From an uncultured Desulfobulbaceae bacterium (GTDB lineage Bacteria; Desulfobacterota; Desulfobulbia; Desulfobulbales; Desulfocapsaceae), in assembly GCA_937132035.1 (NCBI GenBank), contig CAKZOA010000474.1:1-34463 (forward strand): a stretch of DNA of 34,463 nt, read 5' to 3'. Below, in pieces: positions 8,168 to 32,489 of the stretch. The notes under the pieces were generated by a model. The model had not been told where the DNA came from and searched no databases. It worked only from the letters and a program-made list of their open reading frames with translations. The position numbers and the translations under genes were made by a program. Position 1 is the first letter of the stretch, and each line of letters starts with the position of its first letter.

Positions 8168-9583
<1,416 letters not shown>

Positions 9584-9628
9584 TTACCCCTCCTTGAAAA
9601 GTCTAAATTTTATACGATTTTGGATATA

Positions 9629-10498
9629 TTATTTTAGGGCTTCGGCACCGCCAACGATATCCATGAGTTCTGCGGTAATAGCTGCCTGGCGAGCCTTGTT
9701 ATATACTATCGTCAGATTATCGACGATATCCTTACAGGCGTTGGTCGCGTTGTCCATTGCTGTCATGCGGGCCGCATGCTCACTTGCTCCGACCTCGAGC
9801 ATAGCCGCATATATCATGACATTGAGATAGAGCGGCTGCAACACGTCCATGATCTCCTCGGTGGAGGGCTCATAAATGTATTCACCGGATATCTTCTTCT
9901 GTTCAGCCTCTTCACTTTCTATGGGCTGCACGGGCAGGAAATGGGTAACCGCCGGTTTCTGCACAGCCACGGACTGGAATTCACCGTAGACTACTTCCAC
10001 TGTATCGGAATGTCCGTCGAGAAAGTTCTGGGATACATCGGTGGCGATCTCACGAGCGTTGAACATCTGAAATGAACTCATGATATCTGTGAACTGCTTG
10101 CGTACCTTGCCGGTTTTTCTTAATATCTGATAGCCTTTCTTGCCGACGCAGACAATGCTGACTGTTTTGCCCTCGCCTTCATACTTGGCCATCAGTTTTT
10201 CGACTTTGCGGATGATATTTGAGTTAAACGATCCGCAGAGACCGCGGTCGGAGGTTATGACGACGAGTTCAACGGTCTTGACCTCACGATTCTCCATAAG
10301 AGGAAAGTTGGTCGTATTGGCGCCACCAGAAAGATTCGACATCGCCTCGTTGAACTTGGAGGTATAGGGGCGGAAGGCCTCCATCTTCTCCTGGGCGCCT
10401 CGCAGTTTTGCCGAGGCGACCATGTTCATGGCTTTGGTGATCTGGGCCGTCTTCTTGACGCCCTGGATCTTCATTTGAACGTCTTTTAAACTGGGCAT
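9629..10498 (-). CDS. atpG: ATP synthase gamma subunit
   Basis: MPSLKDVQMKIQGVKKTAQITKAMNMVASAKLR and C-terminal ARMTAMDNATNACKDIVDNLTIVYNKARQAAITAELMDIVGGAEAL. Confidence 0.97.
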   Translation of the reverse strand: MPSLKDVQMKIQGVKKTAQITKAMNMVASAKLRGAQEKMEAFRPYTSKFNEAMSNLSGGANTTNFPLMENREVKTVELVVITSDRGLCGSFNSNIIRKVEKLMAKYEGEGKTVSIVCVGKKGYQILRKTGKVRKQFTDIMSSFQMFNAREIATDVSQNFLDGHSDTVEVVYGEFQSVAVQKPAVTHFLPVQPIESEEAEQKKISGEYIYEPSTEEIMDVLQPLYLNVMIYAAMLEVGASEHAARMTAMDNATNACKDIVDNLTIVYNKARQAAITAELMDIVGGAEALK

Positions 10499-10517
10499 AG
10501 CTTGGACCTATCTTTGA

Positions 10518-12041
10518 TTAGTTGAGACCCTTGGTCGCCTTGAATGTTTCACCAAAGCTGGTCAGTGCTTTATTCAGTTTCTCCTTGATCGGATCGGTGA
10601 ACTCTTTCTGCTCTTTCAAGTCAGAGAAGATGGAAGGATCGTTCGACTCAATGTAATTGTAGAGTTCCTGCTCGTAGTCGGCCAGGGTGTCCACCGGCAG
10701 CTTGTCGAGGTGGCCATTGGCACCGGAGTAAATGATGACAACCTGCTTTTCCATGGGCAGCGGCTGATACTGCGGCTGCTTGAGAATTTCGACCAGCCTC
10801 TCACCTCGGGTAAGCTGGGCCTGGGTCTTGGCATCAAGATCGGAACCGAAGGCGGCGAAAGCCGCGAGCTCACGATACTGGGCGAGATCGAGTCGCAGAG
10901 TACCCGCCACCTGCTTCATGGCCTTGACCTGAGCGGCGCCACCAACACGCGATACGGAGAGACCGACGTTGATCGCCGGTCGAACACCGGAGAAGAACAG
11001 GTTCGGCTCGAGATAGACCTGGCCGTCGGTGATGGAGATAACGTTTGTGGGAATAAAGGCGGAAACGTCACCGGCCTGGGTTTCGATGATCGGCAGGGCG
11101 GTAAGAGAACCGGCGCCGAGTTCGTCATTGAGCTTGGAGGCCCGCTCAAGCAGACGCGAGTGATTGAAGAAAATATCGCCGGGATAGGCTTCGCGTCCAG
11201 GAGGACGACGGAGAAGCAGAGAGAGTTCGCGATAGGATACGGCCTGCTTGGAAAGATCATCGTAGATGATCAGGGCGTGCTGACCGTTGTCACGGAAATA
11301 CTCGCCCATGGCGCAGCCGGCGAAGGGAGCGATGTACTGCATCGGCGCCGGATCAGAGGCACAGGCGGCGACAACCGTGGTATATTCCATGGCGCCGTGC
11401 TTGCGCAGGGCCTCGACCACCAGGGCTACCGTCGATTTTTTCTGGCCGACAGCGACATAGATGCAATGCACGTCGGTTTCTTTCTGGGCGATGATGGCAT
11501 CGACGCACAGAGCGGTTTTACCGATCTGACGATCGCCGATGATCAGCTCGCGCTGGCCGCGTCCAACCGGTGTCATGGCGTCAACTGCCTTGGCGCCGGT
11601 ATAGCAGGGCTCATGCACACCCTTCCGGGCGATAACGCCGGGGGCCAGAACCTCTATCTTGGAGGTCTGCTTGGCGTCTATGGCGCCCAGACCGTCGATG
11701 GGATAGCCGATACCGTCGACGACGCGGCCTTCCATTTCGGGGCCGACTGGAACCTCTGCGATGCGGTTGGTACGCTTGACAATGTCGCCTTCCTTGATCT
11801 TGTCAACGCTGCCGAGTACGGCGCAACCGACATTGTCTTCCTCGAGGTTGAGGGCAAGACCCATGATGCCGCCGGGAAACTCAAGAAGCTCCAGGGCCAT
11901 ACAGTTTCTCACTCCATATACACGAGCAATACCGTCACCGACAGAGATAACCGTTCCTGTCTCGCTCAGGTCAATACTTGTCTCGTACTCCCCAATCTGG
12001 TCTTTGATAATCTGACTGATTTCTTCGGCTTTGATCTGCAT
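10518..12041 (-). CDS. atpA: ATP synthase alpha subunit
   Basis: [10 protein letters not shown]-loop, alpha-type [28 protein letters not shown]. Confidence 0.98.
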
Positions 12042-12587
12042 CTATTCTCTCCCTCTAATGGAATCTTTTAAACCTGCAAGCTGTGTCTTGATACTGCCGT
12101 CCAGAACCAAATCTCCCACCTTAGCCACAATTCCTCCTATCAGGGAGGGATCGACGCTGGTGGACAGTTCAACCTGCTTGCCTGTTAACTTTTCTAGTGC
12201 CGCCTTAACCTTGGCCTGCAATTCATCACTGAGTTCTACTGCTGAAGTAACGGATCCATGGCTAATGTTCTTTTCCTCGTCGACCATCATCCTGAACTCT
12301 TCAGCGATCTCAGGCAGGATGTCGGCACGTTTTTTCTCCACCAGCAGGTTGAGAAAATTTGCCGGAACCTTGTCAACGCTCATGGAATCGATCAGAGAAG
12401 CCATCACCTTCTGCCTGACATCGATTGGGTAGAGGGGATTCGTCAGAGCATCAGCAACTTCCGGAGTAGAAGTATAAAGCCCGGCCACTCCCTGGAGCGT
12501 TTCGTTGTAGGCTTCATACGCATCGTTTTCTTTGCCAACGGCGAAAAGCGCCTTGGCGTATCTTCGCGCTAATATTGTCTGTTTCAC
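12042..12587 (-). CDS. atpH: ATP synthase delta subunit
   Basis: ARRYAKALFAVGKEN N-terminus and SVDPSLIGGIVAKVGDLVLDGSIKTQLAGLKDSI C-terminus; directly abuts atpA. Confidence 0.95.
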   Translation of the reverse strand: MKQTILARRYAKALFAVGKENDAYEAYNETLQGVAGLYTSTPEVADALTNPLYPIDVRQKVMASLIDSMSVDKVPANFLNLLVEKKRADILPEIAEEFRMMVDEEKNISHGSVTSAVELSDELQAKVKAALEKLTGKQVELSTSVDPSLIGGIVAKVGDLVLDGSIKTQLAGLKDSIRGRE

Positions 12588-13339
12588 TGTACGGCCTCTA
12601 CTTTATCTAGGTAATCTTCAATGATCTTGACCTGATCTTCAGGTTTGAGATTCTTTACGATTAACTCCTCGGCCATGGCAGCCGCCTGATTGGCAATATC
12701 GTCTTTGAGCTTGCGTCGGGCAATCATGAACTCATTGGCTATGGTCATTTCCGCCTGACGCTTCATGTCTGCGGCAGCCTGCTCGGCTTTCTCGAGAATT
12801 TTGGCCTTTTCTATCTCTGCCTGGGCAACGGCTTTATCGACAATGGTGTCTATCTCTTGTTCCATGCCGGCAAGCTTTCCCTCAAACTGGTGATACGACT
12901 TCTCCGCTTCAGCCTTTCTCGCTTCCAGATCTTCGATCTCGTCCTTGATTTTCTGCTGACGTCCGGAAAGACCGCCGGCAATCGGCTTGGCGCCGAATTT
13001 CACCAGCAGAAAGACGAGAACGGCAAAGTTAAGGATACGAAAGAACAGATCCCATAGTTTCTCTGAAGAAAGACTGCCTCCGTACGCCTCTCCATGCTCA
13101 CCTTCAACCTCGTGCTCCTCGATCGGATGGGTGACATCGCCGACCACCGGGTATTCACCGCTTTTGGCTTCGGCCCCGTGTTCGGCCTGGGTGGCATCTG
13201 CCAGAAGGATCTGTCCGGTGTTTTCCGCTACTGCATGTCCGGTATCACCGGCAGCCCAAACCGCCGAAGCCGTCAGGCAGAACCAGAGCGCCACCGCAAC
13301 CAGACTCACTCCGCTGGTAATGTGCTTTACTCCTCTCAT
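12584..13339 (-). CDS. atpF: ATP synthase b subunit with secreted/His-Glu-rich N-terminal extension
   Basis: TM LWDLFFRILNFAVLVFLLVKFGAKPI followed by long charged helix; ~80-aa N-terminal extension begins with a signal-like hydrophobic segment; 4-bp overlap with atpH. Confidence 0.88.
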   Translation of the reverse strand: MRGVKHITSGVSLVAVALWFCLTASAVWAAGDTGHAVAENTGQILLADATQAEHGAEAKSGEYPVVGDVTHPIEEHEVEGEHGEAYGGSLSSEKLWDLFFRILNFAVLVFLLVKFGAKPIAGGLSGRQQKIKDEIEDLEARKAEAEKSYHQFEGKLAGMEQEIDTIVDKAVAQAEIEKAKILEKAEQAAADMKRQAEMTIANEFMIARRKLKDDIANQAAAMAEELIVKNLKPEDQVKIIEDYLDKVEAVQ

Positions 13340-13341
13340 TG

Positions 13342-13767
13342 TTAGAGACTCCTTCCAAGAATTTTTCCTGCCATGTCGGATGCAAAAGCCTCTAGATTCT
13401 CCTGGAGGGTTTTTCCAGCAGCATCAACCTGACTTTTCAGTTCCGTCATTTTCTCTTTCTTCCCGGCCTCAACTTCTGCTTTTATCTCGGCGAGCTTCTT
13501 GTTCCCCGCCTCGGCGGCTTCCGTCCGCGCCGAGTCAAGAGCCGCTTTGGCCTTGCCGGAAGCCTGGGCCATCTTCTTGTCTACTTCTTCCTGCCGGAGA
13601 CGGGCATTTTTCTGGAATCGTTCGATATCCTCCTGCATCCCCTGCATCTTCTTCGATCTGTCGCGCAGAATACCCAGTACGGGTTTGTACAGAACTTTAT
13701 TCAGAAGAAACATCAAAATGATGATGTTTATCATCTGAATAATTAAGGTGATGTCCATCGTAATCAT
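13342..13767 (-). CDS. ATP synthase b' subunit (second b-type subunit)
   Basis: IIQMINIIILMFLLNKVLYKPVLGILRDRSKKMQGMQEDIERFQ..., short membrane anchor and coiled coil, immediately upstream of atpF. Confidence 0.88.
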   Translation of the reverse strand: MITMDITLIIQMINIIILMFLLNKVLYKPVLGILRDRSKKMQGMQEDIERFQKNARLRQEEVDKKMAQASGKAKAALDSARTEAAEAGNKKLAEIKAEVEAGKKEKMTELKSQVDAAGKTLQENLEAFASDMAGKILGRSL

Positions 13768-17506: not shown

Positions 17507-18208
17507 TCAGACATAGTCGATCCAGGTACCGGTTCTGCTGGCGCGGTAGAGGTCGTTGAGGGTCTCCAAACCGCCGGAATGGAATTTTTTTACCAGGTAA
17601 ATGAAAAGATAGGCAGTCTGCATGGCATCACCCAGAGCGCTGTGCTGGGCGAACAGAGGCAATTGGAATTTTGTGCTCAACTCATGCAGATTGAAGCTCT
17701 TCCTTCTGCTGCCGTGGCCGCAATGGAGCCCATAGAGTTCGCCATAATAACTGCGGGAAAGTCGCATGGTGTCGATCATCGGATTGTTGAGGGTGCCGCC
17801 GTAGAGCTTGCGACAGGCCTTGTCGACAAAGTCCATATCAATGGCGATGCAGTGGCCGACTATGAGCGAGTGGCCGAGGAAGCCAAGAAAACGGGGAACA
17901 ACCTCCTCCATTCTCGGAGCCGTTTTCAGCTCCTCGGGAGTAATACGGTGGATCAGCGTGGCCTCGGTGTGTCTGGTTTTATGCGGCCTGATATAGGAGG
18001 AGAAGAGCTGACCGAGATCAATCTGCATGTTTTCGATTCTGACGGCGCCAATGGATATGATCTCGCTACTCCTTTTGTCCAGGCCGGTGAGTTCGGTATC
18101 AAAAACCACAAACGAATAATCGCGTAGCGGTCTGCTCTGGTCAAAATTTCTGAAATGTTTTTTATTCTCAGAAATCAGTGCCGATTGCTTCTTCAGCCAG
18201 TGAAACAC
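17507..18208 (-). CDS. DnaQ-like 3'-5' exonuclease (Pol III epsilon type)
   Basis: FVVFDTELTGLDKRSSEIISIGAVRI (Exo I), LIVGHCIAIDMDFVDKACRKL (Exo II), HSALGDAMQTAYLFIYL (Exo III region). Confidence 0.88.
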   Translation of the reverse strand: MFHWLKKQSALISENKKHFRNFDQSRPLRDYSFVVFDTELTGLDKRSSEIISIGAVRIENMQIDLGQLFSSYIRPHKTRHTEATLIHRITPEELKTAPRMEEVVPRFLGFLGHSLIVGHCIAIDMDFVDKACRKLYGGTLNNPMIDTMRLSRSYYGELYGLHCGHGSRRKSFNLHELSTKFQLPLFAQHSALGDAMQTAYLFIYLVKKFHSGGLETLNDLYRASRTGTWIDYV

Positions 18209-18229: not shown

Positions 18230-20191
18230 TCAGGCCGCCGAAAAAAGTTTTTCCAGGGTATTTTGCAGTTTTTCAATCACCTCAAAGGCATCTTTCAGCA
18301 TGGTTCTCTCCATTTCTGTGAGTATTCTAGGCTCTATAAAGTTGTCCGGAGCACGGTTTTCCTCGATCTGCTCAAGCTGGTGAAATATGCGAAACTGCAT
18401 CTGCAGCTCATAGGCCTTGATAGCGGCATTGCATATATCAACGGGGAGATGTCCCTCACTCTGCAGCGCCTGCAGCCTGGAGATGGTATTGGTCTCCTTC
18501 AAGCCGTATTTGAGCGCCAGCACCCTGGCAAAGCCGATTATCGGCTGCAGCCCGCGCAGCTTGATATCGAGCCTGTTCTTATGTTCACCGTCACGCTCAA
18601 CGATGGAATTCTTGAAAAAGGACAGCGGTACGCGGATGGACTGGCACTGCCGGGCCATGATGGTGAGAAACTGCTGGCGCCGTGGGGCGATATCTATGAG
18701 ATGATTCCTCAGACTGACCGCCAGCTTCTCGTCGCCGTACCCGGCTCTGAAGTCGAAGAATATGGCGGCATCGAGCAATTCCTGTGCAGCCGGTTTACCC
18801 GTCCAGCCATTGAAATATTTGACCCAGCCGGAAAAGGACCGGCACCAGGCGGGGTTGGTCGCCATGACATTACCGGGACAGGGCGGGTAACCGCACTTGA
18901 GCAGATGCTGGATGGTTTTTTCGGCCAGTTCGCCGAAATAGGCCTCGGCCCTGTTTTTTTCCTCTTCGCAGTAAGGGTCGGCATAGACAATGCCGTTGTC
19001 CTGGTCAGTGAGAAACGTTTGCTCACGCCTGCCTTCGCTGCCCATCAGCAGCCAGCAGTAGCTTACCGGCGGCTGACCCATCTCCTTTTCCAAAAGCATC
19101 AATATCTGCCGGACGATCTGATCGTTGAGAATGGAGATCATCCTCGAGATATTGCCAGCCTTGCCGCCTTCGTTAATCAGGTGGCGGATCAGTTCCGGTA
19201 CCTTGGAGACGATGGGATAGATGCCTTCGATGCTGCGCTGCTTGCTTACTTCCTTATAAAGATAAAAGGGTGAATTACCCTGCAGCACCATAATATCGTG
19301 GGAGGTGAGCATGCCTGTTATCCGTCCCCCCTTCTCCACCGCCAGATGCCTGATGCCCGTTGCCATCATTTTCAAGAGGACATCGAAACATATCTCGTCG
19401 GCAAGCACGGTATGCACCGGCTTTGTCATGATGTTTTCCACCGGCTCGGTGTAGTCACGGGCTGTGGCCACTACCTTGACCCGCAGATCGGTGTCGGTGA
19501 TGATGCCTATTATGTCTTCCTCATCGTCAGGATCATGGAGCAGCATCGAGCCGATGCGCAGCCTGGCCATGGTGCCGGCCGCTTCCTGAATGGAACTCTT
19601 CACCGACATCTTTTGCACTTCCTTGGCCAGATCGCCGGCGTTCATGGAAAACAGGTAGAAGTTCTCCGAAGACCGCAGTCCCGCTTTCTGTTGCCTGAGT
19701 TCCATGTAGGCTGTACTGACCACCTTGTCCGAAAAGCTTTTCAGAAAAAAGTGGGAGATGGAGGGGGTGTTTTTGACAAGTTCGAGAAATATTTCCCGGG
19801 GCAGGAGAAAACAGAAGGTGTCTTCGATGGTTTCTATATTAAGATTGGCACGGGTGCCGCGGATTATGCCCAGAGCGCCGACATAGGCCCCTTCCCCTCT
19901 GTAATCCTTGAGTATTTCCTCACCTTTTTCGTCAATGAGAAAGGCTTTGACACCACCGCGCTGGATAAGATAGAGATGATGTATTTCCGTCTCGTCGACG
20001 GTCATGAGCCGCGATCCCTTGGGAAAGAAATCTATACGGCAGTGGCCGGCAACCTCCCTGAGCCCCTCTTCGTTCAAAGCGTTGAAGGGCATCACCTTTT
20101 TGAGAAAGGACAGAACGGTTTCCGGAGCGACGGCATTGGCACTGCGGTCAAGCTTCGGCTTTACTGCTTTGACATCTTTTTTCCTCAGCAT
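18230..20191 (-). CDS. cNMP-binding / tandem CBS / DUF294 nucleotidyltransferase-like protein
   Basis: 653 aa; cyclic nucleotide-binding-like N-terminus, CBS repeats (DLRVKVVATARDYTEPVENIMTKPVHTV), nucleotidyltransferase motif LLMGSEGRREQTFLTDQDNGIVYAD. Confidence 0.9.
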   Translation of the reverse strand: MLRKKDVKAVKPKLDRSANAVAPETVLSFLKKVMPFNALNEEGLREVAGHCRIDFFPKGSRLMTVDETEIHHLYLIQRGGVKAFLIDEKGEEILKDYRGEGAYVGALGIIRGTRANLNIETIEDTFCFLLPREIFLELVKNTPSISHFFLKSFSDKVVSTAYMELRQQKAGLRSSENFYLFSMNAGDLAKEVQKMSVKSSIQEAAGTMARLRIGSMLLHDPDDEEDIIGIITDTDLRVKVVATARDYTEPVENIMTKPVHTVLADEICFDVLLKMMATGIRHLAVEKGGRITGMLTSHDIMVLQGNSPFYLYKEVSKQRSIEGIYPIVSKVPELIRHLINEGGKAGNISRMISILNDQIVRQILMLLEKEMGQPPVSYCWLLMGSEGRREQTFLTDQDNGIVYADPYCEEEKNRAEAYFGELAEKTIQHLLKCGYPPCPGNVMATNPAWCRSFSGWVKYFNGWTGKPAAQELLDAAIFFDFRAGYGDEKLAVSLRNHLIDIAPRRQQFLTIMARQCQSIRVPLSFFKNSIVERDGEHKNRLDIKLRGLQPIIGFARVLALKYGLKETNTISRLQALQSEGHLPVDICNAAIKAYELQMQFRIFHQLEQIEENRAPDNFIEPRILTEMERTMLKDAFEVIEKLQNTLEKLFSAA

Positions 20192-20407: not shown

Positions 20408-20701
20408 ATGAAAGACGAACAAATAGATGCAGTTGCCAAGATCCTCAAGTCCATGTCGCATCCCATCCGGCTGAAGATATTGTGCCTGCTCCAGGATCGC
20501 GAGCTCTCGGTGGGCGATATCCGCAACGAAGTAGAAACCACCAATGCCAACGTTTCACAGCACCTCAACATCCTGCGCAACCAGGGAATAATCGACTACC
20601 GCAAAGAAGCCAACTTTATCTATAACCGCATAACCGACAAACGCATTCTTGAGCTGATCATGAACATGCAGAAGCTTTTTTGCCCGGATTTCGAGAAATA
20701 G
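20408..20701 (+). CDS. ArsR/SmtB-family HTH regulator (SqrR/BigR/YgaV-like candidate)
   Basis: 97 aa; AKILKSMSHPIRLKILCLLQDRELSVGDI...NVSQHLNILRNQGIIDYRKEANFIYNRITDKRILELI; Cys at 26 and 92. Confidence 0.92.
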   Translation: MKDEQIDAVAKILKSMSHPIRLKILCLLQDRELSVGDIRNEVETTNANVSQHLNILRNQGIIDYRKEANFIYNRITDKRILELIMNMQKLFCPDFEK

Positions 20702-20748: not shown

Positions 20749-20958
20749 ATGACAGTTACAGACTGGATACATACCATCGCCGGTACTTTCATCCTCGTCA
20801 GTCTCGCTCTTGGTCTGCCGATAAGTCCGGTCTTTCACAGCAAGTACTGGCTGCTGCTGACAGCTTTCGTCGGCCTCAATCTGTTCCAGTACGGCATCAC
20901 CAAATTCTGCCCGATGGCATACATCCTCAGGAGCCTGGGGGTGCCGGAAAGCAGGTAA
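20749..20958 (+). CDS. Small DUF2892 (YgaP-like transmembrane) protein
   Basis: MTVTDWIHTIAGTFILVSLALGLPISPVFHSKYWLLLTAFVGLNLFQYGITKFCPMAYILRSLGVPESR; two TM segments and the CPM...LRSLG tail. Confidence 0.85.
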   Translation: MTVTDWIHTIAGTFILVSLALGLPISPVFHSKYWLLLTAFVGLNLFQYGITKFCPMAYILRSLGVPESR

Positions 20959-20966
20959 GGCGGAGC

Positions 20967-21182
20967 TCAGCTCTCCACCATTTCCGCTCCGCAGGCGGCC
21001 TGCCAGCAGCACAGGGCCTGCGAGCACCTTTCCTGCTTGCGAAAGCAGGGAGAATTGCCCTCATTTTCCTGTATCTTCCACACCAGCTGATCGAGGCTGA
21101 TCATACCGATATTCAGGCCCAGTTGCTTCGATCTTGCTCTGGCCATCACATACAGTTTCAGTCCTTTTTCAAACTTCGCCAT
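20967..21182 (-). CDS. Small SAP/Rho-N-like, Cys-rich protein
   Basis: 71 aa; ARSKQLGLNIGMISLDQLVWKIQENEGNSPCFRKQERCSQALCCWQAACG; helix-extended-helix-like segment followed by a five-Cys tail. Confidence 0.6.
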   Translation of the reverse strand: MAKFEKGLKLYVMARARSKQLGLNIGMISLDQLVWKIQENEGNSPCFRKQERCSQALCCWQAACGAEMVES

Positions 21183-21583: not shown

Positions 21584-24500
21584 TCAAATCGGAAGAATAT
21601 GCATCTCTTCCGTAATCGCATGGTTGCCGCGCAACAGCAGACCATTGCGACCGTCTATGGCCACCGGATCGCCAAAATCGATGCGGAACCCTTCTATTTC
21701 GCAATATTGGCCGGTATCGTAGACTTTAAGGTGCTTGCAGCCGACGATGCAGGTTTTCTCCAACCGCACGGCCACCACCGAGGCATGCGAGGTCTGCCCC
21801 CCGCGCGAGGTTATCAGGCCGTCGGCCATGTTGATAACCTTAACATCTTCGGGCACGGTATCCTGCCGAAAAAGAATAAGGGTGCTGTGCGGGTCTTTTC
21901 TGCGCATCTCACGGATATTGTCCTCGGAGAAAACGGCAATGCCCGACAGTGCCGAACCGGAGACGCCGACTCCCTTGCCGAGAATATGGTCGTTGAATTC
22001 CTCTGATTCGCTGAAAACGTTGAGACGCTCCTTCTTCTTGATGGTTATCATATCCCTGGTCTGCAGCAGATAGAGATCGCCTTCGGAAGGCCCCTCGAAG
22101 GTGAATTCGATTTCCTGCGGGTTCCAGCGCTTTTCGTAGACAAGATCCCTGGCAATCGACAGCAGCCTCTGGTAAATCTGGGGAAAGCGCACCTCCAGGG
22201 TCTCTTCTATGGCCCGGCCGTCGAGTTCGGCCTGCTCCTCGGAAATGGCACAGCTGGTAACCAGACCCGAGACAATGTCTTCGCCCTGATCGCCGTAGGC
22301 GTAATCGCCCCACAGGGCCACCCTCTGCACCTTGCGGTAGGGATGGGAGGTAAACAGCACGCCGGAGCCCGCCTGTTCCGACTTGTTACCAAAGACCATC
22401 TCCTGGACGATCACCGCCGTACCCCAGGAGTTGGACACATCCATGACCTTGCGGTAATCGTTGGCCTTGGCCGTCTCCCATGAGTCGAGCACTTTTTCGA
22501 TGGCACCCACCAGCTGCAGCCAGGGATCCTCGGGGATGCCGTAGCCCCGCTGGCGCACCAGCTTCTGGTAGCTGAGCGCCAGCTCCTTCATCTGCGCAGG
22601 AGAGAACTGACGTTTGAGCCTGACCTTGTGGCGGGTCTTGGCGTCGTCCATAAGCTCCTGGAAATCCTCGCGCTGCATCCCCGAGATCATAGCCCAGGAC
22701 TGGACGAAGCGGCGATAGTTGTCCCAGCAGAGATAGGCATTGCCATGTTCGCGTACATGTTCTTCTATCAATTCCGCATTGAAGCCGACGTTGTGGATGG
22801 TGGCCATCATGCCGGGCATGGAAATGGCCCCGCCGCTGCGTACGGACAGAAGCAGCGGCCGATCCGGCGAACCGTAGACCTTGCCGGTGCGCTCCTCGAT
22901 CTCGGTGAGCGAGGCCCGTACCCTCTGCATGAACTCCTCCCGGGCCTTGGCAAAATCGAAAACCACATCGCGGCAGCGGAACACCTCGGTGGTGATGACA
23001 AAAGCCGCCGGTACCGGCTTGTTGTCGTTGATGAGGTTGAGCAGGTTGAAGCCTTTGTTGCCGAGATGGATGAGATTGTTGGTATAGGGGTTGACGTTGT
23101 AAAGCGAGGAGATAGCCTTTTCCGGGTTATAGGTCATCAGCAGATCGATACCCTGCTTGTCGAGAATATCCTTCTGGTTCTCCAGGGTCTGCAGGATGCG
23201 GACGATGAAGTTATCGAGGTGCTGGAGACCGAAGGTCGAGGCGATCAGATCGCGAAAAAAGGCCTCGGAGAGACGGTGCAGGGTAAAGACCTTGTCGTTT
23301 CCATCAAACTGCGGCTTGTACCTGGTGAGCAGATCTTCGACGCTGATCTGGGGAATGATGATGGAGAGATTGTTCTGGTGGATATTGGTGTAGAAGGCAT
23401 AGATAATGTCCTTGACCCCTTCGGCCATTCCCCTGAAGATGTCGAGGTACTGGGTGTAGGAAAAGCGCCGGACCTTCAGCGAGTTTTTGAGCAGGGTCAG
23501 GTAAATCTCCAACCGGCGCGAGGTGATGCCGTCCACCTCCAGGGCCCGCAGATAGAGTTCGATGCAGGTCACCACCCGGTAGAGAGTGGCCTGGGTGATG
23601 AAGCTGAGATTGACGGTCTCCTGCAGGTTCTCCAGGTAGATATTGGCCAGATTTTCCAGGCGGAAGGTAAGGCTGAGGCTGTCGAACTTTCGTTCCCGGT
23701 AGCGGCCGTAGACCGAGGGAATGTCGACGGCTATATGGCGCTTGTAGTAGATATCCTCCTGGGCCTCGAAACGTTCCTCGGAGAGAATGATCTCCTTGAG
23801 CGCCTCCAGCCTGGTCAGCAGCGCCTTGAGGCAGGTGATGGTGTCGCAGTCCTCCAGTTCCTCAATGAGCTCAGCCATGCCCTCTATGCCGTCTCTGGAG
23901 GCCTGGATCAGCTCCGAGCGCAGCTCCTGGACGCCGAGGTTATATTTCTTGTGCAGCAGTTTATACATGTGCACCAGCAGCTCGAAGCGGCGGCGCTCGG
24001 TTGTCGACAGGTCATCCTGCCTGCCGAGATAGACGCTGATCTCCTCGGGCTCCCAGTCAAGAATGTCGTCGATGGTCTCGAAATGAAGATCCTCTATGAT
24101 TCTACCGGCGAGGATATGCTGTTCATCGATGAACCTGCCCGAAGTCGCCACCTGCTCATAGACCTCCGACGGCAGAAAGGAGGCGAGCCACTCTTTGTCT
24201 TTGCTTTTCCAGAAGAGGAAAATGGCCTTGATGAAGTTGACTATGAGGTTCGAGCTCTCCACATGGCTCTGCTTACGCAGAAAATGGATTAGAATGTCTT
24301 TGCGCTTGTGGAGTTCATCGAGTTCGGTGGAAACATCGCGGAGCTCGCCTTCAGCACCTATTTCATTAAAAAAAACAGGCATCAGCTTGGTGAACTGCTT
24401 GGCGAGGTTGTAGATCGGCTCGATGGGATGGTTGAGCAACTCGGTGATGTCGCGCTGGAACAGATCGGTATCCTTGACGCAGGTGCCGGTGAGCTTGAGG

Positions 24501-25867
24501 TTGATGATCAGCGCCGAAAACAGCGTCGAGCACCATTTTGGTTCCTGCTCGATCAGGTGCAGCCAGACACGGATATTGCTCAGGTGGGCGGGATTGGTCA
24601 ATGGCTGCCAGTCTTCGTCGACGCCGATGACATTGGCGTACTGGAAGCCAAAGCGGACGACGCTGAACAGAAATGCCTCGACCATGCGCGAGTTGCCGCG
24701 CTTGAACACCTCACCGCCTAGCACCTGTATGCACTGCAGGGAGGTGTGGGGATATTTGTTGACGTTGGCCTTGAGCAGATCGAAGGTGGTGAGCAGAAAC
24801 TCCTCGATCTCCTCGAAGCTTTGCTGGCGGATAAGCTGGACCAGGCTGCGGTTGATCTCGCGCAGCGATTCCTCATGGATGAGATAGAGTCCCTCGGTAT
24901 CCATAATCTTGAAGAGAAAAAGCAGCTTCCAGTTTTCGGCTATGGGATCCTCGGTCTCAAGTCCGTCTGCTTCTTCCGCCAGTTCGGCCAGCCGGGCGGG
25001 TATGGTTTTGTAGAAGCGAACGATATCGACATGGGCCGGCAGTTCGAGGACCTCCCCCAGGCCGCGATAGGCATCTGTGTCGATATCAATTTCCGCAAGC
25101 CTGCGGCGATAGTCAATCATGGCCTTATGACTGATGGAGGCGAACAGGTCGTAGTAGTGAAACTGCTGCTCCTCGATGCCGCAGCGTTCGAGAAACCACG
25201 GCAGCGGATCATCCTCACCGAGCCAGTAGCCGTAGTTTTTGAGAAGAACGGTGCGCATAAGCGCGGCGATGGGACGGTAATCGAAAAATACCCGATCTTC
25301 ACTGGAGGCCTCATAAAGCGACGTCGCCAACCGCTTCATGGGGTGCTGTCCCTGAACAATCTGGATCATTATGGGGCTGTCGCCGTCCTCGAGGCTCTGC
25401 ATGCGGGTGAATATCTCATTGACAACCTCCTCGTACTGCAGCAGCGCCTCCCGGTCGAAGAGATGGATCATTTTCTCAATCCAGGCGAGCTTGGACTCAA
25501 TGATCTGCGCCAGCAGGGCCGAGTTTTTCTGCGAATCCTTGATCGCTTCGAAGAAGATCCGGGCCATGAGCCGCATGGCATGCGGTCCCTGCTCATGACG
25601 CACGAAATGGCTGCAGTTGCGCAGGACGAAACTGCGCAACAGCGGCATGATCAGGCTCCAGTTGCGAAAGGGATGGCATATTTCGTGGAGAAGGCTCTCC
25701 AGGCTGGAGTGAATCCCCCGGTACCTGGAGACCACATCGAGCAGAGGCTTGAGCTCCGGGGCTATGACCACCTCACCTGCGGTTTCCAGCAGATTCGCCC
25801 GCAGTGCGTCGGACTCAATTCCCGCCGTCGTCTGCTGCAAATCCATGCTCTTCTCGTCCGTGGACAC
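21584..25867 (-). CDS. Large PPDK-like phosphotransferase (ATP-grasp + phospho-His swivel domain, unassigned ~930-950 aa N-terminus)
   Basis: ORF 21584..25921; likely GTG start at 25867 after GGGAGGAG. PPDK-like NKGFNLLNLIND, LLLSVRSGGAISMPGMMATIHNVGFN and catalytic-His segment GGQTSHASVVAVRLEKTCIVGC; ends ~66 aa after that His. Confidence 0.88.
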   Translation of the reverse strand: MSTDEKSMDLQQTTAGIESDALRANLLETAGEVVIAPELKPLLDVVSRYRGIHSSLESLLHEICHPFRNWSLIMPLLRSFVLRNCSHFVRHEQGPHAMRLMARIFFEAIKDSQKNSALLAQIIESKLAWIEKMIHLFDREALLQYEEVVNEIFTRMQSLEDGDSPIMIQIVQGQHPMKRLATSLYEASSEDRVFFDYRPIAALMRTVLLKNYGYWLGEDDPLPWFLERCGIEEQQFHYYDLFASISHKAMIDYRRRLAEIDIDTDAYRGLGEVLELPAHVDIVRFYKTIPARLAELAEEADGLETEDPIAENWKLLFLFKIMDTEGLYLIHEESLREINRSLVQLIRQQSFEEIEEFLLTTFDLLKANVNKYPHTSLQCIQVLGGEVFKRGNSRMVEAFLFSVVRFGFQYANVIGVDEDWQPLTNPAHLSNIRVWLHLIEQEPKWCSTLFSALIINLKLTGTCVKDTDLFQRDITELLNHPIEPIYNLAKQFTKLMPVFFNEIGAEGELRDVSTELDELHKRKDILIHFLRKQSHVESSNLIVNFIKAIFLFWKSKDKEWLASFLPSEVYEQVATSGRFIDEQHILAGRIIEDLHFETIDDILDWEPEEISVYLGRQDDLSTTERRRFELLVHMYKLLHKKYNLGVQELRSELIQASRDGIEGMAELIEELEDCDTITCLKALLTRLEALKEIILSEERFEAQEDIYYKRHIAVDIPSVYGRYRERKFDSLSLTFRLENLANIYLENLQETVNLSFITQATLYRVVTCIELYLRALEVDGITSRRLEIYLTLLKNSLKVRRFSYTQYLDIFRGMAEGVKDIIYAFYTNIHQNNLSIIIPQISVEDLLTRYKPQFDGNDKVFTLHRLSEAFFRDLIASTFGLQHLDNFIVRILQTLENQKDILDKQGIDLLMTYNPEKAISSLYNVNPYTNNLIHLGNKGFNLLNLINDNKPVPAAFVITTEVFRCRDVVFDFAKAREEFMQRVRASLTEIEERTGKVYGSPDRPLLLSVRSGGAISMPGMMATIHNVGFNAELIEEHVREHGNAYLCWDNYRRFVQSWAMISGMQREDFQELMDDAKTRHKVRLKRQFSPAQMKELALSYQKLVRQRGYGIPEDPWLQLVGAIEKVLDSWETAKANDYRKVMDVSNSWGTAVIVQEMVFGNKSEQAGSGVLFTSHPYRKVQRVALWGDYAYGDQGEDIVSGLVTSCAISEEQAELDGRAIEETLEVRFPQIYQRLLSIARDLVYEKRWNPQEIEFTFEGPSEGDLYLLQTRDMITIKKKERLNVFSESEEFNDHILGKGVGVSGSALSGIAVFSEDNIREMRRKDPHSTLILFRQDTVPEDVKVINMADGLITSRGGQTSHASVVAVRLEKTCIVGCKHLKVYDTGQYCEIEGFRIDFGDPVAIDGRNGLLLRGNHAITEEMHILPI

Positions 25868-26355
25868 TGATTGCTCCTCCCTTTTGTGACAAAAAACGGC
25901 TGCACCGGCCAGGCAGCCCAACCTCGGTACGTTTCGTTACCTTCAACAGTACTTCCTATAATGGTGGATTCCCTCCCATTAGGCAAGGGGGAAAACGAAA
26001 TATCAGAGCCCGATAATAGACCAGGAAGTGTACTTTTCGTATTCTAAGAGGCTTGACCAGTACTGATCTCTCTTTCTCTTACAAAGGGGCAGTAGAGGCT
26101 TTTGCCAGGAGGGGTAATTCTCGAATCGTAGTAGGTATTCCAGTGCGCCGTGGAGCCTTTCTGCGGCACACTTTTTTTGTTGAGCATCCGCAATTAGCAA
26201 AATGTTGCGCACAATACGACAAACACATGGAGAATCCTCAACTATCAGGCCACTCATATTGGCGAACTGTTCCCGCGAGTTGAGAATGTCGGCAATCGAG
26301 TCTACTCCCTTCCCGGGTGATCTCGTCAAAACCTTTAATCCCGGTGGCGGATTTT

Positions 26356-27963
26356 TTAACGTCGCGACCTCGTCCCAATGTGTTTGCTTTCTCGGTTGAC
26401 ATTCAGGCCCTCCTCCGAGGGATCGCCTCCATCCAGCACGGCCCGTAAAGCTTTTGCAAGTTCTGCTCTGGTAAGGGGTTTCCTCAAAAGTGCCCGCACC
26501 CCAATTTGGGCAGCCTCTTATTTATTGATCCTCTCACTAAACCCGGTTGCCAGTATGACCGGGAGACCTGGCTGCATGGCAAGGCATTTTTTTTGCCAAA
26601 ACGTATCCGGTCATTGCCGGCATGGTCATATCGGAGAGCAAAAGATCAAAGTCATCTGGTCTGTTCTCGAACAGCGCCAGCGCCTCGATACTGCTTACCC
26701 TCGTTGTCACTCTGTACCCGAGTCTTTCCAAAACCTTTGTATTTAATCTCAGGACAGCAGATTCGTCGTCAACTACCAGAATATGCTCTTACCCCCCTTC
26801 AATCTCAATGATGCCGTCTTCTTCGACCAGGCTTTTACCAAAGGACTGCGGCTGATAAATATCAAAAACCGTACCTTTACCGAACACGCTGTCCACAGCG
26901 ATCACACCGCCATGATTATGAATAATGCCGTGGACAACCGACAGGCCCAGCCCTGTTCCTTTTTCTTTTTCCTTAGTTGTGAAATAGGGTTCAAAAATTT
27001 TTCTGGCAATATCCGGCTTCATTCCGCAACCGGTATCACCAATCTGGAGGTGAATATATTTCCCCGGGTTAATATCTCTTCAGTCCACTCTCTATATCGA
27101 GTGACGGGATCATACCACCAATACCCTATTTTTCCGGCTCGTTGAGCTATCCTGGAAATTTCTTCTGTTTTCTTAAGGGCTTCCTCGCGTTCTTTTCGCT
27201 CGGTCACATCGATATGAGCACCCATCATACGACCGGGACGCTTCTGGTCGTCGTCAAAAAGCAGGGAAGCAGTGGCCATTATCCAGCGATAGGAACCATC
27301 CTTGTGGAGCATGCGAAACTCATTGGAATAGTCAGCCCATGGCTTTTTGATATATTTCTGCACCTTGCCGACTGCCTCGGCGCGGTCCTCAGGATGCAGA
27401 CGTTTCTCCCATTCAAGGTATTCGTTGCCAATTTCATGGTTTGCATAGCCAAGCTGGCTTTTCCATTCAGGAGAAAAATACATCTCGTTGCTTTCAAGAT
27501 CCCAATCCCATAAGCCAATATTTCCAGCCCGTGCCATCATTTCCAGCCGCCCTTCTGTTCTCTTTTTTTCCTCCAGGGCTAACGTCAGTTCGGTACAATC
27601 ACGGCCACTGGCAACAGCTCCAATAATATCGCCCTGTTCATCACGATAGGGGGAATAGGTGATATGCATGCATCTCCGCCCCATTTCCGCCAGATCAAAC
27701 CACGTTGTGTGGCTGATGGTGTTCCCCTGCAAACAGTCATTGAGATGTTTTTTTATACTCGTCTCGAAGATATCGGCATCGAAGAGTTCATCTACCCTGC
27801 GCCCAATAATGTCTTCTCGTTTCATGTTGTAGAGTTTCAGGTAGACATCGTTGACCAGTACAAAACGGTACTCACGGTCAATAACGGAGAGGGAGTCCTG
27901 GTTTGTGGAAATGATATCTTGAAAAAAACGGTGATTTTGGAACTCTTTCCTCAGGTCTGTCAT
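26356..27963 (-). pseudogene. Decayed PAS-PAS-PAS / HATPase / REC hybrid histidine kinase
   Basis: PAS part 27019..27963; HATPase part resumes out of frame as [49 protein letters not shown]; in-frame TAA at 26789-26791 before EHILVVDDESAVLRLN; frameshift at A8 tract (T8 on + strand, 26587-26594); second in-frame TAA at 26518-26520. Confidence 0.85.
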
Positions 27964-28028: not shown

Positions 28029-31000
28029 TCATTGACCGGTATTGTCAAAAATATCTCGAACGACACCTTCTATTTCTCGTTTGGTGAAGGGCTTGGTGAT
28101 AAACGCCTCCACCCCCCATTTCGCGGCACTCATTTCATTGACGACATCGGCGTGTCCCGTAGAGATAATGACAGGGATACTGCTTCGTATACTCTTCAGT
28201 TTCAGGGCGAATTCCGTGCCCGTCATCTCGGGCATGGTCAAATCGGATATAACAAGATCAAAAGTGTCCGGTGCATCTCGAAAGGCCTCCAAGGCGTGTT
28301 GCGGACTGTTGTATGTTGTGATCTGGTAGCCTAGCCGTTCGAATATCTGTTGATTCATCCGGGTGATCGCCTCTTCGTCATCGACAAAGAGAATATGCTT
28401 CTGCCGTGAGGTGGTGGTGGCGCTTTCCGTGGGTGTCGTCGCCGGTTCCTCAACTGTCTCGATCACAGGTAAAAGCACCTTGAATCTCGTTCCTCTCCCC
28501 AGTTGGCTCTCAACAGAAATCGCACCATCATGATTTTTGACTATACCAAGAACGACGGCCAGTCCCATACCAAGCCCTTCGTCAACGTCCTTGGTGGTGA
28601 AATAGGGGTCGTATATGCGGTCTTTTATCTCATCTGAAATACCGCTTCCGCTATCGTTGACAATAAGCTGAATATATGCTCCCGGTCCAAGCTCCATATC
28701 CCTTACTCTGAGACCATCGGTAAGGTGAAGGCTCTCCAGGGTAACCCCCAACACCCCTTTTGTACCTGACATTGCCTGTACGGCATTGTTGCAGAGATTG
28801 ATGAGTACCTGGTGGATCTCGGTTGGATCGGCAAGAATCGATTCCGTAGCGCAGAGCAGGCGGGATTGAATCTCAACAGTAGCCGGCAGCGTCTTTGAAA
28901 GCAGCTTCAGGGCATCCTTGACGACGGTGCGAATCTGCACCGGCTTCTTGACTATGGCGCTCTTGCGAGCAAAGCGTTGTAATCTCTCAACGACATTCCG
29001 TGCCCGAAGAGAGGCCGCCTGAATGTCTGTGATACAACTCATGAGCTCTTCGTTGTCACGCTCTTCGTCGGCGACAAGCTCAAGATTACCGATAATTATT
29101 GTCAGCATATTGTTGAACTCATGGGCTATCCCACCAGCAAGAGTGCCAATTGCCTCCATTTTATGGCGGTGCCGTATTTCTTCTTCAAGTCGGACTCGCT
29201 CCTTTTCTTCGCGCTTTCGTCTGGCGATCTCGGTGCGCAGCCTTTCTGTGGCTTTGGCCTGTTTTCCCGCTTCAATGGCAACATCCCGACTCTGCCGGGT
29301 CTTTAGTACATCATTTGCAATACTGCGTACGCGGTGCAGGTGTCGTTTTTGGAATTCTTCGACAAAGTCAGAGGAAATGTCGCGAGTCGGTGTCGGTGGC
29401 TGCGTAGCGTGAAGATTCATCAGCCAGCTTTGAATATCGTCTGAGTACTCCATCTCCATGCGGCGTACTTTGCTTGTGGCGCCAAAACGACGAAAACAGT
29501 TGTATGCCTGCTGCCAATAAACCTGGGCAAGATTGTCGTTATGCATCTGCCGGCAAAGCAAGCTTGCCCTTTCACTGGCAATCCCTTCCCATTGAGTAAA
29601 ACCATTATGTCGGGCCATTTCTATTGCCTTATCATAAGAGACGAGGGCTTGACTGTATGATCCGTCAATCCTTAAAAGCTCCCCAGAGGCGAAAAGAAAT
29701 TTATGATGCTGATTTTCCGGACAGTACTCTTTCCATACCCGAAATTGTTCAATTGATTGCCCCAGCTCTTTTCTCCACACCGCCTGCTTTTCTGCATCAG
29801 CATCCTGAAAAAGGGCTGATATCACCAGGAACCTGACAAAGCGGTGTTCAGGCCAGGGCAATAACCCTTGTGTTCCTACCGTGTAAATAAGTGCGTCGGC
29901 CTCTTTGGCAATATCATGGGCCTTGTGGTACTGGCCCAACAGGAGGTAGGTAAATGTCTGGAAAATCTTGTAAATACAGCAAACCTGAATATTCTTGTGA
30001 CTATCAACCTGCCTCAGATAGCTGGCATCATCTTGAAATTCATACAACTGTTTTTCAGACTCGCTGGAGAGCATGCCAAAAATGCGAAGTCCGCCCTCGA
30101 GGAGATCGACGGCCCACTGGTTGAGCCGTGACTGACTGAAAACAAGAGATTGTTCCGTGTTTCGTATCAATTCAGGAAGGGGGACAGCCTGGTAGAAACT
30201 GCAGTACATGTTGTGCCCGAAGGCATAGGCAGCGTATTGCAGGTTGCCGGAACGAAGGCCTATGTCGTAGGCACTGAGGTAATCCGTGGTTGCATGGCGC
30301 AGGTGTTTGAACCAATGTCGTATTGAACTTCCCATCATCAGGTAGAAAACACTTTGATCGGAAGGTGAAGCGAATCGCTTCAACATGATTCGCTCGGCTA
30401 CTTCACCGAATTGACGTGCTGTCCGGTAATCATGATCCACCCATCCCAGAAGTCCGCCAAAGGCTGTATGGCTATAACCGATTTGGGGAATGAGGCCATG
30501 TTCAAGAGTCAGGTTGACGACCTTGGAAACGATAACGCTCCATAGCCGCTGGTGCGTTCTGTAACAGGGAGGCCCAATGGTGATAAGTAACCTGATGGCG
30601 GTCTGTACCTCGCTGTTGGACATCAGAGGAGCATCTATGAGAGAGGAAACATTGATGGTATCCAAGGTAGTTCTGCATTTGGCTATTTCCCTGTCCCGGT
30701 ATCTCTCATATTCTTTTTCTGGTAAGGAGATGCCCAACTCCTGAAGAGCTGTTCTTCCCAATGATATGGCCTCTTCATATCGGGCTAAGAGGGTATAATG
30801 AACAATCTGGATATTCATGGTCTCCGCCCGTTCCACAGCGGTCCTGGTATGTTCCATGGAGTGTTCGACAATCCGCTCAGCTCTTTCTCTATCACCTTCG
30901 ACGAACTCACTTTCGGCAAGATCACGGCTTAATTGCAGGGCGGTATCGTAGTGATTCTTCCAGAAGGATTCGGCGCCATTTTCCTCTTCCATGGCAAAGG

Positions 31001-32489
31001 AGTAGGCTTCGCGATTGAAGGTGAGCATGGCGCGATAGGCAGTGGCTGTCTTGGCTTTTCTGGCCGCCTGCATATTGAGATCAATCATTTCCACTCTCTC
31101 GGCCGGATCGACGATTAACGAAGCCCCGGCATTGAGGTGCTCGAGTATCTCAAATAAACGATCATTTCTTTCCCTCTCATTGAGACTGGCCATGAGTTGC
31201 CTGCCAATTTTCAGCTGGAGATTTTGAATGTTGCTGCTGTCAATAAAGTGGTACGCGGCCTGCTGTACCCTGTCATGCATAAATCTGAAACGAACCTTGC
31301 CCCCACGCTTCTGAACACTGCCGCCATCTTCTTCAGCGAAAAGAAGAAAACCGCGTGCCTGCAGCGGCGTGAGCTTGGTAATGCATTGCTCTGTTGAGAG
31401 AGAAGAAATCAGGCTGAGCGATTCAATATCAAAAATGTTTCCAAGACATGCCGCAAAAGCAAGAAGTTCGCGAACGTGTCCACTGAAGAATTTCAACCTT
31501 CTTATAAAGAGTTCTACAATATTGTCTGGAAGATCCTTCGTGCCCACCTGCCATCGCCACTTTTTCTCATGCGAATCAAAGAAGAGCTGCCTGTTCTCAC
31601 ACAAATATTCAAGTAATGATATGATATAAAACGGATTCCCCCCAGTATACTGCCGAACCAGCCGTGTCAGTTCGTTGAGGTTTTCAACGGGATATTGGAA
31701 AATACCCGAAACCAGCGTCTCAACATCATCTTCTGTCAGGCTTTTTACCTCGAGCACCTCTGGAGGCCTATTCTGACTCTGCATAGCCGACAGGACCGGT
31801 TGCAATGGATGGGTGGTGTCGATTTCATCATCACGAAAGGAGACGATGAGCAAAAAGGAGGAGAGCGTGCTGTCTGGCTTAAGAGCCCTCAAGAGATTGA
31901 GGGAGGCTTGATCGGCCCACTGCCAATCGTCAAGAAAGATAACCACAGGGTGATCCGGTTGACTGACAACCTCCAGAAAACCGCGAATAGCACGGGTGAA
32001 CCGGTGACGGGCCTCGGAGATGGCAATTTCTTCAAGACCAGGCTGATCGGAAAACACATCCTCCAGCTCCGGCACAAGCTCTACCAGCAGAGAACCAAGA
32101 TCGCCAACCGTCTTGTGCAGTGAGATCTTCAGAACCTCGAGATCCTCATTCCTTTCCGTCTGAATGTGCTGCCAAAGGAGCGATAAGGCCGTGCTGAGCG
32201 CATAATACGGCGTGTTCTGCTGGTATTGGTCGAACTTGGCCTGGATAAAAACTCCGTTTTGATCAAGTACGGGCTTTTTGAGCCATTCAACCAGGGAGGT
32301 TTTGCCGATTCCGGACTGACCAGGAACAAGTATAATCTTTCCGGGACCACGGCTGGCCTTGACAAAAAGCGTCTCGAGTTTTTCGGTAAGACGCTCACGT
32401 CCAACGAGGAGTTTGGGAATGTCGAGTTGTATATGGTGTGTTGGTCGCTGGCTACGGTAGCTCTCCATATCGGATGAACCTACTCCCAT
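28029..32489 (-). CDS. AAA_16 ATPase / TPR-like / HisKA-HATPase / REC hybrid signalling protein
   Basis: 1486 aa; [16 protein letters not shown]...[33 protein letters not shown], HisKA [23 protein letters not shown], HATPase [53 protein letters not shown]...[14 protein letters not shown]. Start may be MESYRSQ at 32468. Confidence 0.9.
   Translation of the reverse strand: [1486 protein letters not shown]

Follow-up and report, generated by a model that had tools for sequence, protein, structure and literature searches.

The locus

A 34,463-nucleotide stretch of DNA from an uncultured Desulfobulbaceae bacterium (assembly GCA_937132035.1, contig CAKZOA010000474.1, positions 1 to 34,463; hereafter the window) carries a long open reading frame (ORF) of 1427 amino acids, referred to here as X. 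Conserved among sulfur-cycle bacteria, X is an enzyme that fuses the ATP-using portion of a pyruvate, phosphate dikinase (PPDK) to a large novel helical domain. Such genes are described as 'PEP/pyruvate-binding' (PEP, phosphoenolpyruvate) by domain only, a label that hides the N-terminal module. X and an unusual glyceraldehyde-3-phosphate dehydrogenase (GAPDH), designated GAPL, nearly always share genomes, and X may therefore represent a step in making or breaking down sugars that has gone unrecognised. The features of X are as follows.

21584 to 25867, minus strand: X, the 1427-residue solenoid-dikinase ORF, with a GTG start at 25867 and the stop (included) at 21584
25874 to 25880, minus strand: Shine-Dalgarno sequence GGAGGAG, read directly, 6 nucleotides before the GTG of X
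23078 to 25867, minus strand: N-terminal region, residues 1-930, a predicted solenoid, all helical apart from one conserved beta hairpin, of no known family (AlphaFold pLDDT 85; no Pfam or PDB match)
24188 to 24667, minus strand: residues 401-560, proposed acceptor or partner site (DTDLFQ, NEIGxEG, FLRKQxHVES)
23633 to 23767, minus strand: residues 701-745 (EDIYxKRHIAxDIPSxYGxYxExKFD), the hairpin, with a low-confidence and probably mobile tip
21998 to 23074, minus strand: PPDK-type ATP-grasp, residues 932-1290, with K938, R1010, R1053, E1252, E1254, Q1269 and R1271
21620 to 21988, minus strand: phospho-His swivel domain, residues 1294-1416
21785 to 21787, minus strand: codon of His1361 in GGQTSHAS, the predicted phosphate carrier, invariant in 136 homologues

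The dikinase half of X

Pfam searches place a PPDK_N domain at residues 977-1283 (E 2e-27) and the mobile PEP-utilizers domain at residues 1331-1409 (E 2e-16), while the PEP-utilizers_C barrel (PF02896) that a PPDK should have was not found in X by Pfam. Residues 932-1417 align with the PPDKs of the PDB (E 8e-72, ~33% identity to PPDK), and the model of the C-terminal half can be superposed on the PPDK structure 1kbl (539 columns, 3.5 A). A first-pass annotation, prepared from the letters of the window, had placed the start of the ATP-grasp near residue 950 and the phospho-His near 1379, with only about 66 residues beyond it and the PEP/pyruvate barrel gone. This layout is borne out: 66 residues lie C-terminal to His1361, and the two positions become ~932 and 1361 when counted from the GTG, the shift of 18 arising because an upstream TTG (giving 1445 residues) had been taken as the start.

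The equivalents of the PPDK ATP-site residues K22, R92, R135, E323, Q335 and R337, and of the swivel carrier His (H455 of PPDK), are invariant or at least 99% conserved in 136 X homologues, and the position of PPDK D321 is a Glu throughout the family (invariant, at least 99%). X therefore carries both the ATP-grasp residue set and the swivel His in GGxTSHA that characterise PPDK; loss of the ATP-grasp catalytic residues, which the first-pass annotation had named as a sign of a non-enzymatic role, is not seen in these homologues. The roles of the ATP-site residues other than K22 are known from PPDK mutants. For K22, the role in PPDK is cited in PMC4844700. X scores 346 bits against TIGR01828 (PPDK) and 76 against TIGR01418 (PEP synthase) and, since its scores are of the PPDK type and not the PEP-synthase type, would be expected to act as a phosphate dikinase; the 346 bits lie under the TIGR01828 equivalog cut-off of 843.

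A canonical PPDK is also encoded in the host genome, as is a PEP synthase, so that X is not needed for PEP. The question of a stand-alone PEP-utilizer C-domain gene, raised in the earlier annotation, is answered in the negative for this genome, where PF02896 occurs only inside these two enzymes, and the idea of a PPDK split over two genes, one of them for the barrel, was rejected on this ground.

The N-terminal solenoid

The earlier description of a helical, unassigned N-terminus of about 950 residues agrees with the present analysis. No consistent Pfam family was found for residues 15-945 in 52 members, nor was a significant PDB sequence match; AlphaFold models (residues 15-945, pLDDT 85; residues 300-1427, pLDDT 87 and pTM 0.75) predict an almost all-helical solenoid, the tip of its single conserved hairpin being of low confidence. 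Foldseek retrieved generic HEAT/karyopherin-type solenoids only, with TM scores of at most 0.17 normalised to the query, and no specific PDB fold. No match was obtained to plasmid sequences with the N-terminus, nor in a viral fold library (E <= 0.001), and no carbohydrate-binding module was found in X by Pfam (52 members). A characterised domain, which would have pointed to a known substrate, was thus found neither by sequence nor by fold.

Conservation within this region is uneven. Residues 401-560 hold 31 invariant positions per 100 and residues 701-745 hold 42; the ATP-grasp has 22.5, and the remaining N-terminus 4-9. The two blocks look, from this pattern, as would be expected of an acceptor site or the face for an obligate partner. 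The suggestion of the first-pass annotation that X is a dikinase-type phosphotransferase whose N-terminus binds the acceptor or is regulatory gains support from the invariant catalytic residues and from an N-terminus without a characterised match.

Distribution and co-occurrence with GAPL

Co-occurrence was examined in 297 genomes of the Desulfobacterota, that phylum only. Full-length homologues of X are present in 84 of the 297, with identities down to 38%, and the dikinase half and the 930-residue N-terminus have therefore been kept together across the phylum. A scan of GTDB genomes confirmed by tblastn yielded 80 fetched loci, 61-83% identical to X, from Desulfobulbaceae, Desulfocapsa, Desulfopila and similar lineages. 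As judged from this conservation, X is neither a chance ORF nor a broken PPDK. In one single-contig genome (G065, L154:1433-5600) a frameshift near residue 590 interrupts X, and GAPL is the only type-I GAPDH; X is intact in its close relative G028, and the frameshift represents a sequencing error or recent decay.

GAPL, the product of gapL, is a protein of ~420 amino acids with the Gp_dh_N and Gp_dh_C domains and the catalytic Cys of type-I GAPDHs, the SCTT motif around this Cys being kept in 40 of 40 sequences. It falls below the TIGR01534 cut-off (297-332 bits in three members vs 367.2) and is classified by sequence as a divergent subfamily of type-I GAPDH. It carries VNxGR in place of the NAD-binding INDL, which suggests the use of NADP. 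Two single-contig genomes yielded no type-I GAPDH besides GAPL, which is therefore probably a working GAPDH.

X and GAPL occur together in 83 genomes, X alone in 1, GAPL alone in 2 and neither in 211 (Fisher p 2e-70, phylogeny ignored). The single X-only genome is 76% complete, and the two GAPL-only genomes, from one genus, are 79% and 62% complete. As the Fisher value ignores phylogeny, a stratified test was made within the six internally variable GTDB families (f5, f13, f14, f36, f52 and f57), inside which X and GAPL are gained or lost together (p 1.7e-6). Pyruvate kinase, used as a control, showed no association with X (p 0.88), and aprA a loose one (both 60, X only 24, aprA only 59, neither 154). 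In many lineages of the Desulfobacterota, whether adenylylsulfate (APS) reductase is present or not, X and a second GAPDH are matched nearly one-to-one. A strict role in APS/pyrophosphate metabolism as a partner of sulfate reduction was dropped, aprA being found in 60 of 84 X genomes vs 59 of 213 others.

Gene neighbourhood

In distant lineages a frequent gene order is rapZ-rimI-gap-X-gapL-pgk-tpi, and gapL adjoins X in ~38 of 46 distant loci. Several lineages retain only the pair of X and gapL, the two being convergent in some. The canonical gap, pgk and tpi genes probably belong to the ancestral X/gapL operon. In the nearer loci, from Desulfobulbales, a canonical GAPDH gene lies directly upstream of X in 37, usually preceded by glycogen synthase; glycogen synthase two genes upstream of X was counted in 40 near loci and 1 far. 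In the genome of the window gapL sits on a different contig, with a rimI-like gene after it, and the canonical gap lies elsewhere. The other features of the window are as follows.

28029 to 32489, minus strand: hybrid histidine kinase of 1486 amino acids, with an AAA_16/STAND-like ATPase at the N-terminus, HisKA and HATPase_c domains, and a receiver at the C-terminus
27019 to 27963, minus strand: double-PAS protein adjoining the hybrid histidine kinase
20967 to 21182, minus strand: Cys-rich protein of 71 amino acids (CFRKQERCSQALCCWQAACG), no Pfam family
~20749 to 20958, plus strand: small putative membrane protein, after the ArsR gene
20408 to 20701, plus strand: ArsR-family regulator
18230 to 20191, minus strand: DUF294 nucleotidyltransferase with CBS and cNMP domains
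17507 to 18208, minus strand: DnaQ-like exonuclease adjoining the DUF294 gene
8168 to 13767, minus strand: genes for an F-type ATP synthase (two b/b' subunits, alpha, gamma, beta), an ordinary set lying downstream of alaS

The PAS/histidine kinase signalling pair occupies the place taken by gap and glgA upstream of X in relatives; it was not seen among the conserved neighbour families and was rejected as a partner of X. The DUF294, DnaQ, isochorismatase and AlaS genes of the window were likewise rejected, DUF294, DnaQ and AlaS recurring almost only in the near Desulfobulbales loci. In relatives the DUF294 gene lies near acetyl-CoA synthetase. The Cys-rich protein is 48% identical to a small protein found directly downstream of X elsewhere in Desulfobulbales (cluster c23, 13 loci).

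Probable function

The partnership with a GAPDH narrows the likely acceptor of X to the triose level, where 3-phosphoglycerate is the simplest candidate because its product is the substrate of GAPL. We tentatively favour, with a probability of roughly 0.4, the reading that X is a PPDK-type dikinase whose acceptor is most likely 3-phosphoglycerate and which is paired with GAPL as an ATP/AMP bypass of phosphoglycerate kinase (PGK). The more specific proposal of a phosphoglycerate, phosphate dikinase, with channelling between X and a dedicated NADP-type GAPDH in either direction, is conceivable but somewhat more doubtful. The papers searched contained no record of such an activity, nothing relevant to the family and no biochemical data on it. 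In the proposed mechanism the ATP-grasp would bind ATP, together with phosphate (Pi) at a PPDK-type Pi site, and pyrophosphorylate His1361; Pi would take the gamma phosphate, leaving phospho-His1361, and the swivel domain would hand on the beta phosphate, not to a pyruvate barrel but to an acceptor bound at the solenoid surface formed by residues 401-560 and 701-745. The reversible reaction of X would be

3-phosphoglycerate + ATP + Pi <-> 1,3-bisphosphoglycerate + AMP + PPi

with PPi denoting pyrophosphate, and GAPL would reduce the 1,3-bisphosphoglycerate with NAD(P)H to glyceraldehyde-3-phosphate. X and GAPL could thus provide a second route around the PGK and GAPDH steps, as PPDK does around pyruvate kinase. 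In the gluconeogenic direction the PGK reaction stands at about +19 kJ/mol, and that proposed for X would be near +4 kJ/mol, pulled further by the removal of PPi. In reverse, the reaction could make ATP out of the AMP and PPi that sulfate activation releases, and X could in this way couple sulfate activation to sugar metabolism.

Several points weigh against this proposal. PGK is nearly universal and accompanies X in essentially every genome, so X fills no missing step, and a role as a replacement of PGK was rejected; the apparent gap in one genome (G232) is due to a short PGK fragment on another contig, below the strict cut-off. X and gapL are unlinked in Desulfobulbales, including the window. 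The thermodynamic plausibility is drawn from textbook values, solenoid folds bind proteins more often than metabolites, and the catalytic role is read from the sequence and a model in which the pocket within reach of His1361 is putative. As a separate observation, some X genomes (G033, G231 and G184; loci L147, L148 and L149) yielded no PGK other than a divergent one (E ~1e-75 to 1e-79 vs ~1e-150 elsewhere).

The main rival, to which we give a modest chance, is a regulatory kinase: X would autophosphorylate on His1361 while the solenoid docks GAPL or the canonical GAPDH and tunes its activity, much as VadK does with enzymes of the methylcitrate cycle, without a small-molecule acceptor. The VadK precedent (PMC13400623), the predicted solenoid fold and the one-to-one co-occurrence with GAPL are all consistent with such a role. 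However, VadK has no comparable N-terminus, and the N-terminal invariants of X, among which Arg, Lys, His, Glu, Asp and Tyr abound and whose density exceeds that in the ATP-grasp, resemble a catalytic site more than a docking face. We give a slightly smaller chance to a dikinase acting on another small molecule, such as glycerate, glyceraldehyde, dihydroxyacetone, a glucan or a sugar. In its favour, dikinases readily swap acceptor domains, as for rifampin and phenols (PMC4844700, PMC12167813), and many Desulfobulbales have glycogen synthase two genes upstream of X. Against it, GAPL tracks X throughout the phylum, whereas the link to glycogen synthase hardly extends beyond Desulfobulbales, on which account a glucan dikinase was rejected, and X has no carbohydrate-binding module detectable by Pfam.

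The PPDK-type ATP-grasp and swivel domain would also suit an enzyme still acting on PEP or pyruvate, with the N-terminus in place of the barrel; given the absent barrel, the canonical PPDK and PEP synthase already in the genome and the triose enzymes that neighbour X, this is very improbable. Least probable of all is a degenerate or non-enzymatic relative of PPDK, for which the lost barrel and the one frameshifted copy could be cited, against catalytic residues invariant in 136 homologues and full-length identities of 38-83%. Central carbon metabolism is regarded as fully mapped, and the X/GAPL pair suggests that an enzyme or control point at the triose level has been overlooked. If the 3-phosphoglycerate proposal is true, X would stand at the PGK step of core glycolysis/gluconeogenesis as the counterpart of PPDK.

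Comparison with known systems

PPDK (EC 2.7.9.1; TIGR01828) resembles X in having an ATP-grasp followed by a phospho-His swivel domain with equal active-site residues; X differs in the absent C-terminal barrel, the 930-residue N-terminal solenoid and the gap/gapL/pgk context. Glucan, water dikinase also combines a large extra N-terminal region with ATP-grasp and His domains, but its His domain precedes the ATP-grasp and it carries carbohydrate-binding modules, unlike X. VadK (Rv1127c) is a truncated PPDK with an ATP-grasp and His, which autophosphorylates and binds metabolic enzymes (PMC13400623). It shares with X the ATP-grasp and swivel His without a barrel and the link to metabolic enzymes, the agreement being in the architecture of the C-terminal half of X. 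In contrast, VadK is a mycobacterial/actinobacterial protein of ~50 kDa which lacks the N-terminal solenoid and belongs to the methylcitrate cycle, while X is no short protein of a methylcitrate operon, having a 930-residue N-terminus and gap, gapL and pgk as neighbours. The 'nitrate cluster' protein of D. vulgaris (DVU0246/Dde_0604) also has PPDK_N and the mobile domain (PMC4001038) and is set beside X by domain content only.

Rifampin phosphotransferase and the two-component phenolic dikinases (HpeHI, CreHI, PpsAB) use the dikinase mechanism proposed for X; their swivel His, too, sits close to the C-terminus, and their acceptor domain, like the one proposed for X, bears no relation to the barrel. 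In these enzymes, unlike X, the acceptor domain lies between the ATP-grasp and the swivel domain or on a separate subunit; X has no acceptor domain in that position and scores 25.6 bits against NF041857 (cut-off 999). The ATP-grasp of rifampin phosphotransferase is PEP-synthase-like and that of X PPDK-type, and there is no fold match to the X solenoid. X would add a new acceptor module to a well-studied swivel machine.

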